Assembly (NCBI GenBank): GCA_963922205.1
Contig: CAWUHX010000005.1
Coordinates: forward strand, 558,001-622,000
DNA: 64,000 nucleotides
Origin: Romanomermis culicivorax
Taxonomy: Eukaryota > Nematoda > Enoplea > Mermithida > Mermithidae
Direction: 5' to 3'
Shown one piece after another: positions 50,713 to 59,531 of this stretch. The notes beneath the pieces were generated by a model, which saw nothing but the letters and a program-made list of their open reading frames with translations, ran no database searches and was not told the DNA's origin. The position numbers and the translations under genes were made by a program. The stretch's first letter is position 1. Every line of letters starts with the position of its first letter.

Positions 50713-52551
50713 ATGAAGTCAGACATTGATTTACCTTCAAAGATTGAGAATAAGGTCCAAGCTGCATTTGAGAATGCCCTCGAACCACTCAACCAAAAGC
50801 TGGAGGCTATGAATGGCAGAAGGCACCCTCCTGCGTCCAGCTTCATGGCCCCTCCTGCCTTTTCAGGTGCTTTTGGTTAGTCCATACCGGATTTTATATC
50901 CCACTTGACCCGCCTCTTTACACTTCAAGGGGTAACAGAAGCAGATCATGCATATAAAATTGCGTTCTTGGAGTCTTGCCTCATGGGTCCTGCTCTCGCA
51001 TCCTACCGGGACTTTAGCAGTGGTACTCCACAGCCTACCCACTACGAAGAGTTTACGGCTTTTCTTAGGAGAGACTTTCCAGTAGGGCGTGACTCAGATC
51101 TCCATCAGCAGTTGATCCAGGATGGCTTGCAGAAGCCGACTGAGTCCGCGATAGTCTACCTTGAGCACCTTAAGAGACTGTCCAGGGTGGCTTATCCGGA
51201 TCTCGCGACTGATGTTAGGGATTCTATTATTAAACCTATCTTTCTGAGAGGGTTGAAACCAGTCCTTAGAGATAGTATTAAGTTCAGGGAGTTTACAACT
51301 CTTGAAGAGACTCTCAAAGCAGCCTGTTACGCAGAATCACAGATTTTTCGGGATGAGATTAGGTATACTGCCCCATCTAATGCTGTTTTCCCTTCAGAAC
51401 AAAGGACCGCTGACAACGTCAGGTCAATGTCAAATCAAAGGGGCACTGCTCAACATCCGTCGGTAACGCCGTCAGACCAAATTCGACGTTTACAATCGGA
51501 GATGGCCCGGCTTACGGCTCACTTTGCCCGACTTATGGCTCTGCAATCGGCACCGCCTTCGAGAAATTCGATGCGGTCATCGACGCTGTGGACGCGTGTC
51601 CAAACCGCTGGCGAACGCCCATCAGGGGCACATTTACAGATGTGCTCCTACCATGGACGCTGCACCCACAACGACGCTAATTGCCAGGCCCAACATCCCG
51701 ATAGCGCCCACCCTAGCACCGCCACCACCACTGGCACCAGCCGTTGCTATTTTTGTCCAATGAGGGCGCACCCGACTGACCGATGGGACAGACCCTGCCC
51801 GCATTGCCGAAAATTACGAGTGAATCGGGCTTCGGCCTGCCCAAATCGAAATTCGACATTGCCTGGTGAGACTAATTTTGGTAATTCTAGTTACTCTCCT
51901 CAGGGGGCAAGTGGAAACTTTCGGCGATATGCTAATCCAACTCCTCACGGGACAGGGAACCAATATTGGTCACCCCCACGGCAAAATAATGCTGTAGGGG
52001 CTACCGACAGTCTTCTTCACCCAGATCTCTTTGATCTGGATGATGAAGTTCTGGCTGAACATCTGGCGGATCACTCACAACTGTGTTATCCTGTCTGTAT
52101 AATCAGTATTGGGTTTTTAGCTGCCACAGTGGTTTCGGCATCGACTCCGTCGTCAGCCTTTCCGTCGCCGCCACCAAAATACGCAATGCCGGTCAACGTA
52201 AACCCGTCAATGACACCGAAAACGACTGGCAACGTCAGTGTAATCGCGTCGTATCGACCGATGGAAGGTACAATGGCGCCACCGGCACCTGCTATCAACC
52301 AGGGACCACCGCCCGGAATTCCTATGGACTCCCCGTTGGAGGTCGTCGGTCAGTTGGAATCGATGAATCTGATAGGTAAACTACCTTCTTTTTCTGAAGT
52401 TTCAGATCTGGAAATCAGATGTCCTTATAAGTCACCCGCTTTAACAATTTCTTGTTTACAGATTCCTCATCCGTCACTGACGCCATGCGGGCTGTTTGGT
52501 CAACCGATTTGGCCAAAAGTATCCGCACCTCCCCTGGGCGCTACTCAATGA
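50713..52551 (+). pseudogene. gag: gag-like polyprotein with an in-frame TAG
   Basis: Gag builds the virus-like particle. The frame is open from about 50475; the first in-frame ATG is at 50713, and a TAG lies at 50878-50880. After it the frame runs 557 codons to TGA. Capsid-type signals follow the TAG: ADHAYKIAFLESCLMGPAL, FTAFLRRDFPVG, YLEHLKRLSRVAYPDL and IFLRGLKPVLRDSI, the helical pattern of Ty3-type capsids. Two Cys/His clusters follow (CSYHGRCTHNDANC and CYFCPMRAHPTDRW...CPHC), zinc-knuckle-like, then a proline-rich tail. Two segments (51869-52120, 52375-52460) have GT...AG borders (GTGAGA...TTTTTAG; GTAAAC...TTTACAG) and might be spliced, though they are open. The single stop may be decay or a readthrough codon. 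Confidence 0.75.
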
Positions 52552-53066
52552 GCCATTCGAGGTTGAGAGGCTTATGGCCGCCGACGTCATGCTATCGGCG
52601 CCGACGGTGTTACGAGTTTTGGGGCCAGACGTCGCTCGACGGGCGCTCTAGTTTATCGCTGACAGAACTATTCGCGCCACCCCCGTGGACAAAATCCTGT
52701 CGGACGGTGAACGGTCATCGCCGGCAGTGGATGCCGTCCGCCGCGCTGTGGAGGAGGCCTGTCGCAACGTGCGGCCCACAGCAGTTGTTGCCACGTCACC
52801 AACAACAACGACAACAGGAGCCCAAACACTGGCGGTGATTGCGCTACAGCAACCGGTCGCCAATGGCTTTGGAGAACTGTTGCCCGCTATTAACAAGGCT
52901 GTCAACGTCACCGAGGCATCGCCATTTCTGATGGCAACCGTCCCGCTGTCCCCGAAGATTGGCGTTCTTCGAGAAGTCCACGTGTGCGGAGGCTTGGTCA
53001 TCGACTTCCCCGGAGAGGAGCCCGTGTCGTCTGACGACGATGACGTCCAAGAATGAAGCCGCCTGA
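52552..53066 (+). other. GC-rich gag-env spacer with protein-like frames of unknown origin
   Basis: GC content rises sharply. The frame 52685-53056 encodes AVDAVRRAVEEACRNVRPTA ... LLPAINKAVNVTEASPF and ends in acidic DDDDVQE. In the same frame a TAG stands at about 52651, and upstream of it NEPFEVERLMAADVMLSAPT remains open, whereas the region from 52461 to 52560 looks protein-like in another frame. This looks like a degraded coding segment, either the end of gag or captured sequence. Family not recognised. Confidence 0.45.
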
Positions 53067-58300: not shown

Positions 58301-59531
58301 TCTTAGGTCACTAAAACCCTACAGTGATCAGAATGATTTTAATGGCTACCACCGGTTGGATAACATCCTTCAGAAGTGGACAGGCCAGTCCAACAAGATT
58401 GTTGTCCCTCGATCAATGGTTACTACCATTATTGAGGCTTGTCACAATGACATTCTTGCTGGACACTTTGGTGCAAAACGTACCGCGAGGCTTATAGCCC
58501 GCTGGTACCACTGGCCTCCCCTCAGTACGGACGTCAAATCCTTTTGTCAGCGGTGTGATCTTTGCCAACGGAATAAACCGGCAAGAGGAAAGACCTGTGC
58601 AACTCTGAAACCGATCTCCATAATGAGTCCGTTTCACGGTGTTGGTGTCGACTGTATGGGACCAATGACCATAAGTGAAAGTGGAAACCGATTTATTGTA
58701 GTCTTTATAGACTACTTTACTAAATGGGTCGAAGCTTTCGCTACTCCGGACATTACTGCGCAAACCATAGCTCGACTCTTTGTTACACAAATTGTCTGCA
58801 GACATGGGGCCCCGCAGATTCTTCAGTCTGATTGTGGTACTGATTTCACGTCCAAACTGATGACTGAAATCACTGCCATTTGTTCAACTAAGAAAATCCA
58901 CTCCACCGCTTATCATCCCATGATAAACGGAGAAGTGGAAAGAGCTAATCAAACGCTAGCTACACTGTTACGTATGTATGTCCACCAAGGTCATACTGAT
59001 TGGGATGAACACCTGCCGTACTCTGTGTTCACTGTCAACATTTGCATGAATGAGTCCACAGGGTATTCACCCTTTGAGCTCACTTATGATATGGAAGTCA
59101 AACGGCATTTTACAAATGCCTTGACTTTGATCCAGAGCAGGATTGAGAGATCGCAGGCAGCTTATGCTAGGTCCTACGACCGCATGGAACGAGATGTCTC
59201 TTACAAAGTTGGGGATCAGGTGCTCAAACTGCACACCACCGGAAAACGTGGTCTAACGCCCAAATTACTGCCCATTTATGATGGCCCCTACTTTGTCATG
59301 AATGTGACCTACCCCAATGTCACCATTCGACTTGAGACTGACCAAGAAGATACTGTACATGTCAACCAGCTTAGACGCTACGTGTCACCTGCTCAGCCTA
59401 GACAAGAAGAGGAGATACCTTCCACTTCACAGGTCATCGAGATGGCACCTTTGTTGATTCCCTCAACAAACAGAGATTTTACACAAGATCTCATTGACCC
59501 ACATCTTGATGCAGAGGTCTCCGACCCATAA
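55341..59531 (+). CDS. pol: pol polyprotein: second protease, reverse transcriptase, RNase H, integrase
   Basis: One open frame of 1396 codons, in frame with the upstream env-protease frame and entered after a TGA; no initiator ATG near the start, so readthrough or splicing is implied. Residues 30-80 form an Arg/Ser-rich tract. Protease: ALIDTGAVFLLLD (DTG at 224-226) and ELVLGTNFL (about 290). Reverse transcriptase: TLDQADAYWSIP (D583), FGLCNAPGTFQ and YLDD (645-648). RNase H: TDAS (D794) and YTITELETLA (E834), but the usual TDH is TNH (N861). Integrase: H1035, H1042, C1072 and C1075 zinc site, D1104, D1164 and E1200 catalytic triad, and a GPY/F module (YDGPYFVMNV). The linker 935-980 has GEQH/GAQH/DAQH repeats. 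Intact apart from the RNase H change; a member of Ty3/gypsy. Confidence 0.93.
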   Translation: MNAVELPLLLTTAEIDQVDPWWENTRSLSRTSYQSGSRSRSRTSSISRPPSRASSVASSRGSTRGSQTSSRRASGHFMARSGSNCPRPPPGNPPVTLEKGRFREPSDSDAPASPVLEVPSLSDAEVESLGATQSSGERSDHVLTVQVHPTPKTNLETSVGYALVGLLRRTGLPIPKRTNAPESSFDDSVPDPGHVVSAFYPTEMRTPHIKVLLNNWVEAKALIDTGAVFLLLDHKLTVQLPDLTLTETRARPIAANGSPILLLGAAYVTVTVADVSEWVQVQIQENCSAELVLGTNFLRRFNCVSLNWEKSFLQFKELRVPCEGLIHNPPSARGALPLQELIVLEPRSLTQFTAPVPALYATVPEVAFFPKPLLGQQCSVYFAGTVSTVTNGRIPLQVVNLSTHSVVLYPHTTIGHVQMHSDSPQGSAVKSDTTLDRKWVEANAVISSDISSQDKAVLLDLLVAFTDLYAIDEKDTGSTDLVHHEISTGDARPVRRFPYCTAPKEKDLIIQEVKALQEKGIIRPSTSPWATNIVLVRKKNGSHRMCVDFGGLNKVTKKDVYPLPRIDDILDTLKGMKYFTTLDQADAYWSIPIAEADKEKTVFNTPIGLYEFNYLPFGLCNAPGTFQRLMDLLLTGLQWRTALTYLDDILVFGNSHTQMLERLMDVFTRLRQGGMKLRLSKCKFSHSEVEYLGYRISQKGLEPDKVKLAAVQDLPIPQNAKDIKSFLGLVSYYRRFIPGCARLSEPLTKLLRKEVTFQWSKPQQAALNELSRLFLNPPVLRHADFTKSFILQTDASISGIGAVLSQLDENGYDHPVAYPSRWLTAAEKNYTITELETLAVVHLVKHFRPYLFQHEVVVQTNHTAVKAVLEKPNPSSRIARWGLTLAEFKLTIQPRKGPSNGNADALSRLPDPNSLARESIDDIPLYRPEGEVMMISDGEQHPANSSQRTTNGAQHLARSESYAEISQDAQHHDLPATQFEDPELASILRSLKPYSDQNDFNGYHRLDNILQKWTGQSNKIVVPRSMVTTIIEACHNDILAGHFGAKRTARLIARWYHWPPLSTDVKSFCQRCDLCQRNKPARGKTCATLKPISIMSPFHGVGVDCMGPMTISESGNRFIVVFIDYFTKWVEAFATPDITAQTIARLFVTQIVCRHGAPQILQSDCGTDFTSKLMTEITAICSTKKIHSTAYHPMINGEVERANQTLATLLRMYVHQGHTDWDEHLPYSVFTVNICMNESTGYSPFELTYDMEVKRHFTNALTLIQSRIERSQAAYARSYDRMERDVSYKVGDQVLKLHTTGKRGLTPKLLPIYDGPYFVMNVTYPNVTIRLETDQEDTVHVNQLRRYVSPAQPRQEEEIPSTSQVIEMAPLLIPSTNRDFTQDLIDPHLDAEVSDP

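Follow-up and report, generated by a model that had tools for sequence, protein, structure and literature searches.

In errantiviruses the envelope gene (env) sits after pol, whereas the element described here carries env before its protease (PR) and reverse transcriptase (RT). It is a 16.1 kb Ty3/gypsy long terminal repeat (LTR) element of the mermithid nematode Romanomermis culicivorax, lying at positions 45278-61395 of a 64,000-nucleotide stretch of DNA (the window: contig CAWUHX010000005.1 of assembly GCA_963922205.1, forward-strand positions 558,001 to 622,000; all coordinates below are positions within it), flanked by the target site duplication (TSD) ATCT, with its domains in the order gag, envelope, protease 1 (PR1), protease 2 (PR2), RT, RNase H (RH) and integrase (IN). 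What is said here and below of published systems holds for the parts of the cited papers that were available to us. For Atlas virus and related hookworm BEL elements, a single polyprotein of 2828 residues without stops or introns has been described (PMC9094657), and the present family resembles them as an LTR element that encodes envelope and enzymes within a single long frame; Atlas, however, is Gag-Pol-Env with a BEL pol and a phlebovirus-like class II envelope (PMC9094657), whereas our family is Gag-Env-Pol, belongs to Ty3/gypsy and has an envelope apparently of class III type. Anakin, a mosquito BEL-Pao element with a chuvirus glycoprotein, offers a parallel as an LTR element whose glycoprotein was captured from a negative-strand RNA virus (PMC7642597), but the window element differs from it in its Ty3-type capsid and gypsy-type RT, RH and IN by Pfam. 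In Hymenoptera and other insects, gypsy fragments lie beside Jingchuvirales glycoproteins and one such glycoprotein lies in an unclassified complete element, and the available part of that study found no clear evidence of Jingchuvirales glycoprotein capture by Gypsy or Copia (PMC10084718). The errantiviruses gypsy and ZAM of Drosophila share with our element a Ty3/gypsy pol together with a fusion envelope, their env being typically expressed from a spliced subgenomic RNA (PMC12992720) and errantivirus env being of likely baculovirus origin (PMC12440569). The MDG1 group is similar in having a membrane protein away from the usual env position, namely sORF2, a FAST-like fusogen of 63-107 residues encoded upstream of gag, with 7 of 22 Lepidoptera consensus sequences having it behind pol instead (PMC11952523). 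No Gag-Env-Pol LTR element was found in the literature searched, a search that left subscription papers, Repbase and further preprints outside its reach; this suggests that the order Gag-Env-Pol is new relative to that literature, env-bearing LTR elements themselves being known.

The initial annotation, made from the letters of the window, had proposed a gypsy-class element with the order gag-env-pol, and Pfam bore out both points: the window copy matched the Ty3 capsid PF19259, then a piece of PF24664, then PR, RT, RH and IN, which is the PR-RT-RH-IN order typical of Ty3/gypsy (Metaviridae). All parts lie on the plus strand. The gag gene (50713..52374) begins at an ATG common to six copies and comprises a capsid region (50881-51336; PF19259, E = 3.2e-7, 30.4 bits against a cut-off of 29.1) and a Cys/His nucleocapsid (NC) region. 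The envelope glycoprotein (53067..54860; PF24664, 1.3e-11 in the window piece) has a signal or first transmembrane (TM) stretch at 53109-53165 and an anchor, TM2, at 54750-54806. It is followed by PR1 (54933..55337; DTG and ILG motifs; PF13975, 9e-4, below the cut-off), PR2, the protease of pol (55971..56240; PF13975, 2.7e-4 in the window, below the cut-off, and 2e-6 in an open copy, above it), RT (56946..57428; PF00078, 1.5e-32), RNase H (57690..58004; PF17917, 2.3e-34) and integrase with H2C2 and core domains (58404..58919; PF17921, 4.8e-20, and PF00665, 8.7e-8), and the pol stop of the window copy is at 59531. Between this stop and the 3' LTR the plus strand has a single stop-to-stop frame that reaches 80 codons, one of 87 codons (59679-59942), in agreement with the earlier statement that no open reading frame follows pol. 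The span first assigned to the element, 50713-59531, proved to be its coding part, the full element being longer. The window copy itself is a decayed, dead member of its family, with an in-frame stop in gag at 50878, gag and env out of register, and env broken by two in-frame stops at 53526 and 54030.

Intact copies of the family do exist in the genome. Searching the window's own assembly (359 Mb, 595 contigs) with a 435-residue env-PR1 piece scored 97 places among 3426 candidates, which sets a lower bound of at least 97 copies with the window included; 17 of these sit in a 3018-codon frame, and 13 of the 17 are stop-free in the matched piece. Gag, env and pol thus share a single frame in part of the copies, running continuously for about 2964 amino acids from the first gag ATG to the pol stop. 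Among the 30 best-scoring env places (window included), fetched as env-centred pieces of 4.3 kb and so biased toward intact copies, 13 were open throughout from the gag end towards RT, and these 13 bore no trace of a nested insertion. Gag and LTR pieces were fetched separately for six chosen plus-strand copies that have the long frame; in all six, gag lay in the env frame with the same starting ATG and both LTRs were present, with 4-bp duplications in four. The LTR differences of the six copies (2/1427, 40/1432, 14/1438, 5/1436, 4/1430 and 37/1404) are small enough in some to imply very recent insertion, and the family is one of abundant, recently active Ty3/gypsy LTR elements. A corresponding gag search scored at least 78 places (window included) among 3492 candidates, 59 of which pair with a scored env match at about 3.15 kb, 43 of them at exactly 3150 nt. 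Six of the 19 gag matches without a scored env were sampled, and all six carry env DNA, five at the expected distance; the sixth lacks about 0.6 kb of env, its first sample having fallen on PR1 and an upstream one on env. No envelope-free copy was therefore found among the 59 paired and 6 sampled gag loci, with 13 of the 78 outside the comparison. Copies lacking the glycoprotein and a nested insertion, the two outcomes that the initial annotation had named as contrary to its proposal, were thus not encountered in these loci and in the 13 open pieces, respectively, and the gag-env-pol architecture is almost certainly real.

The proposal that the inserted frame is a viral glycoprotein also held, since comparison with viral glycoprotein profiles put PF24664 (Monjiviricetes_fusion) above its cut-off and a profile built from the envelopes matched herpesvirus glycoprotein B (gB). 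In three natural open copies PF24664 reached 61 bits (cut-off 27, E = 7e-17), and the same three gave a sub-cut-off match to bornavirus G; weak sub-cut-off matches to Glycoprotein_B and Rhabdo_glycop_FD were seen for the envelopes as well. The protein has a hydrophobic signal stretch and, about 550 residues on, a C-terminal anchor, with 9 N-glycosylation sequons between the two in the one open copy counted, and across the env-bearing families the ectodomain is retained in full, many of its cysteines being invariant. A single envelope sequence scored none of 4973 candidates in the protein set, while an alignment-based search scored 1 of 4976, P0001, a related envelope from another source whose annotated end looks wrong. 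Against the PDB, the envelope-family profile including P0001 had gB as five of its six matches up to E = 10 (best 2.5e-4), the sixth being a ribosomal protein; one of the five is named ORF8, which we take to be gB. Without P0001, gB accounted for four of five matches (best 0.011), and a single envelope sequence gave no PDB match. By sequence, the Monjiviricetes and gB profile matches place this envelope with the class III fusogens.

The ratio of nonsynonymous to synonymous polymorphism (pN/pS) was computed over 13 collinear open copies, with each stretch also read in the other two frames. It was 0.131 in the first half of env and 0.087 in the second, against 1.4-3.6 when env was read in the other frames. 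PR1 showed the strongest constraint among the parts tested (0.044), followed by 0.138 for the PR1-PR2 linker, 0.166 for PR2 and 0.120 for the stretch after PR2, and other-frame readings from env to the post-PR2 stretch ranged from 1.3 to 14.6. The env codons, strongly so, and both proteases are under purifying selection, which implies that envelope and proteases were needed while the family spread.

Two retropepsin-like domains thus stand between the envelope anchor and RT. PR2 is the one that resembles the lone PR found in each of the env-bearing families described below (38-49% identity with three of them, 29% with L074), whereas PR1 is only 21-24% identical to those proteases and to PR2. 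A recent copying of PR2 was considered as the source of PR1 and ruled out by their 23% identity and by PR2 being nearer to the proteases of the other families. PR1 keeps DTG and ILG, its Pfam score lies below the curated cut-off, and against the PDB it returned chance-level matches only, to Ddi1; it thus adds a further retropepsin-like domain to the envelope tail. Separately, the PR of family L075 (L075:2383-3480) has DCG in place of the expected DTG.

The arrangement extends beyond this family. A PF24664 search of the genome placed at least 68 loci among 2320 candidates, all 68 above the cut-off and 13 of them in frames of more than 2000 codons. Twelve places were fetched as loci, and four families were examined by Pfam (L071, L073, L074 and L075). 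Their envelopes are 37-45% identical to that of the window family in one alignment and 36-45% in another, and in each the envelope is followed by an in-frame anchor, a PR-like domain (above the cut-off in L073 and L075, below it in L071 and L074) and RT, with one in-frame stop within the piece in L073 and in L074. Upstream of env, L073 has an in-frame zinc knuckle (20.1 bits, cut-off 20.8), L071 has zinc knuckles seen by eye, and a member of the L075 family at C51 has a capsid (PF03732, 9.9e-7) sharing the 2514-codon frame; the piece fetched for L074 showed no gag domain. L074 also bears a weak dCTP deaminase/dUTPase-like match after its PR (L074:2542-3576; 0.0018, below the cut-off). In addition, P0005, a 1750-residue protein of a metagenome contig, combines env, PR, RT, RH and IN, its env being 41% identical over 401 residues. 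No relatives were found in IMG/VR. With four further families and this metagenomic homologue having env-PR-RT, the arrangement is a group trait and not a nested insertion. The breaks in the window copy would be expected if the envelope stood there by chance, be it as a nested endogenous viral element (EVE), a host gene or an artefact of assembly in a single copy; at least 97 copies with fixed gag-env spacing and in-frame fusion, the purifying selection, the four families and P0005 make the likelihood of such an origin negligible. The fixed spacing and the selection in particular led to the rejection of a nested insertion or EVE confined to one copy.

The history of the envelope is less simple. 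Three near-identical pairs of gypsy loci from this genome (L057-L062) were taken as env-less only from the absence of a hydrophobic stretch before PR, and they separate from five env-bearing rows by a split of 100/100. P0006 has a close pol (56%), gag knuckles and PR, and no similar envelope was found in it; its residues 509-590 contain two hydrophobic stretches between the zinc knuckles and PR, possibly envelope remnants. When the RT tree was widened to 25 rows, P0006, P0019 and P0063 fall inside the env-bearing group, P0019 and P0063 being fragments without an env label, and P0008 is called env-bearing only from a TM stretch before PR. The envelope capture put forward in the initial annotation is upheld by the homology to negative-strand RNA virus and class III proteins and by the relative that lacks this envelope. 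How many captures took place is less certain, the env label needing 3 changes on this tree. One old capture with later losses fits these data, and separate captures may have taken place.

As to expression, a strategy different from that of other env-bearing elements, as was first supposed, appears likely in view of the continuous frame and a putative intron at the gag end, while stop-codon readthrough between gag, env and pol, which had been offered as one such strategy, is ruled out by 13 of the 30 fetched pieces, which run through this region without a stop. A stop after PR1 is common to the window and three other pieces; this codon is CGA in an open copy and TGA in the two inspected. Continuous translation of Gag-Env-Pol would be the likely outcome of such frames.

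Between gag and env the codon-phase signal departs from the gag/env frame. From about 52530, where the fetched piece starts, to a conserved stop near 53054, pN/pS was 0.288 in frame +2 versus 2.26 in frame 0, and this tail frame is -1 relative to gag. Where the frames part lies an 86-nt GT..AG stretch with a pyrimidine tract, of the same length in the window and in six of six copies; in the window this putative intron, judged from its splice-site sequence, is GTAAAC...TTACAG at 52376..52461, its length being 2 modulo 3. Its removal would join gag to the constrained tail frame and the conserved stop, and its retention would leave gag-env-pol in a single frame, so that the stretch 52462..53056 would serve both as the gag tail after splicing and as the linker of unspliced Gag-Env-Pol. 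Frame 0 of the linker is open in the 13 open copies though its residues are poorly constrained. When the synonymous codons of one open copy's tail were reshuffled in 20000 trials, frame 0 was stop-free in 0.07% (P = 0.0007; mean 3.8 stops), the copies used having been chosen for openness, so that the test asks only whether such openness comes easily; when codons were drawn according to the usage of the linker itself 0.27% were stop-free, and with env usage none. The constrained +2 frame combined with the unusually open frame 0 is read as marking a stretch in which both frames need to stay translatable. On these grounds the intron would act as a switch, with Gag alone made from spliced and Gag-Env-Pol from retained transcripts, a role we lean towards somewhat less than towards the continuous translation. 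A comparable device has been demonstrated in barley BARE1, where splicing of a 104-nt intron close to the end of gag brings a stop into frame and yields a Gag-only mRNA; both BARE1 and Drosophila copia encode their polyprotein in one frame and make Gag by itself from a spliced mRNA (PMC3735527). BARE1 and copia differ in belonging to the Copia superfamily, with no envelope described in the available part of the source (PMC3735527), and our family differs from BARE1 in that the frame entered after the shift encodes a constrained tail some 200 codons long, the splicing being predicted. The position of the tail in frame -1 relative to gag would suit -1 ribosomal frameshifting in place of splicing, but near the switch point six copies had no heptamer of the X XXY YYZ type in register with gag, and good GT..AG sites with a pyrimidine tract span the exact switch, which leaves frameshifting very improbable.

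The sequence of events that we propose would begin with the translation of unspliced genomic RNA as Gag-Env-Pol, of which the Gag part would stay in the cytosol, while the hydrophobic stretch before Env would direct the ectodomain into the endoplasmic reticulum (ER). The C-terminal anchor would halt transfer, and PR1, PR2, RT, RH and IN would emerge on the cytosolic side; given this topology, with the anchor before the enzymes, Pol would be the tail of Env until the proteases act. Alphaviruses similarly thread a structural polyprotein through the ER membrane. Retropepsins and signal peptidase would then separate the products, and Pol, tethered to the membrane, would come together with Gag during assembly and bud along with the fusogen, surplus Gag being provided by removal of the 86-nt intron near the gag end, which would shift the ribosome into the constrained tail frame. 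Overall, a class III, negative-strand-RNA-virus-like envelope inside the main polyprotein, expressed in this manner, is in our judgement quite probably the best explanation of the data, and cell-to-cell or infectious spread stands at about an even chance. A glycoprotein that has lost its role in entry and persists to tether Pol and capsid assembly to the membrane would accord with the place of Pol after the envelope anchor in those open frames that were examined and with the two hydrophobic stretches that P0006, without a similar envelope, keeps between NC and PR; the retention of the whole ectodomain with its many invariant cysteines across families and under selection makes this improbable.

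Several observations weigh against expression as a single polyprotein of this kind and the history it implies. Few variable sites underlie the codon-phase signal of the tail frame. Frame 0 of the linker carries at least one stop in 11 of the 30 fetched pieces, and in the 26 collinear copies out of 29 (L029, L031 and L038 having been dropped as non-collinear) there are 7 linker stops at 6 sites, about six times the per-codon rate of env, 6 of the 7 being CGA to TGA changes. P0001 is predicted as a separate protein of 536 residues with its own start, and the env-bearing rows do not form one clade in the wider RT tree. Finally, an acceptor-like AAATTTGCAG stands directly before the envelope signal in one copy, near 53102, as a separate Env-Pol mRNA would require. 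Under that alternative, Env-Pol would come from its own spliced mRNA, with a donor in the leader or gag and an acceptor before the envelope signal, and the open linker would be a by-product. Besides the acceptor-like site and the linker stops, it would be in keeping with the lack of an in-frame AUG between the linker methionine and the signal in the one copy inspected, and with insect endogenous retroviruses, whose env is usually expressed by splicing, starting inside gag in one subclade (PMC12992720). It does not account for the openness of linker frame 0 beyond synonymous permutation, which a spliced-only Env would not need, and even if correct it would leave the gag-env-pol order unchanged and Pol still fused to Env; we regard it as unlikely, yet as a weightier alternative than frameshifting or a tether.

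The remaining parts of the window element are as follows. The left TSD (ATCT, 45274..45277) is identical to the right one (61396..61399), and a TG..CA LTR pair with a TSD of 4-6 bp is thus present here, as it is in four of the six other copies. The LTRs, found as direct repeats and both bounded by TG..CA, span 45278..46657 (5' LTR, TGTCAC...GTGACA) and 59994..61395 (3' LTR) and differ by 78 mismatches and 7 gap openings over an alignment of 1425 columns. A candidate primer binding site (TGGCGAGGCTGG..., 46658..46675) abuts the LTR end GTGACA and also directly follows the 5' LTR in all six fetched copies. Next comes a long leader of about 4 kb (46676..50712) with repeats of a TGACGTCAGCAA-like motif at 48172-48707. 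This motif, which we take to resemble a bZIP/CRE site, has 12 matches with at most one mismatch in the window against 0.18 expected: the five in the leader (48172-48707), two before the 3' LTR (59807-59847), one on the minus strand inside env (53407-53418) and four outside the element (1603-2062). Elsewhere in the window, two similar unannotated host frames lie on opposite strands at 29639-30868 and 35004-36401, the former with no Pfam match, and an ankyrin-bearing fragment at 7984-8463 resembles ANKZF1/Vms1. An Rfam scan of the window returned nothing at gathering scores.

In env-bearing LTR elements with a stated order, the fusogen is at the genome end, or a small FAST-like protein lies mostly before gag; with the envelope embedded between Gag and Pol, the present group shows that a retroelement polyprotein can have an envelope in its interior. 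The present case also appears to be a capture by Ty3/gypsy of a glycoprotein of negative-strand-RNA-virus type, of which the available part of PMC10084718 had no clear Jingchuvirales case. That these elements constitute an undescribed Ty3/gypsy group, with a class III envelope in mid-polyprotein, Pol packaged as the envelope tail, an extra retropepsin there and a dual-frame intron switch, is a tentative proposal to which we give slightly less than even chances. If it is true, Pol would be a membrane-tethered product, and the family would represent a new solution to the problem of the Gag:Pol:Env ratio.

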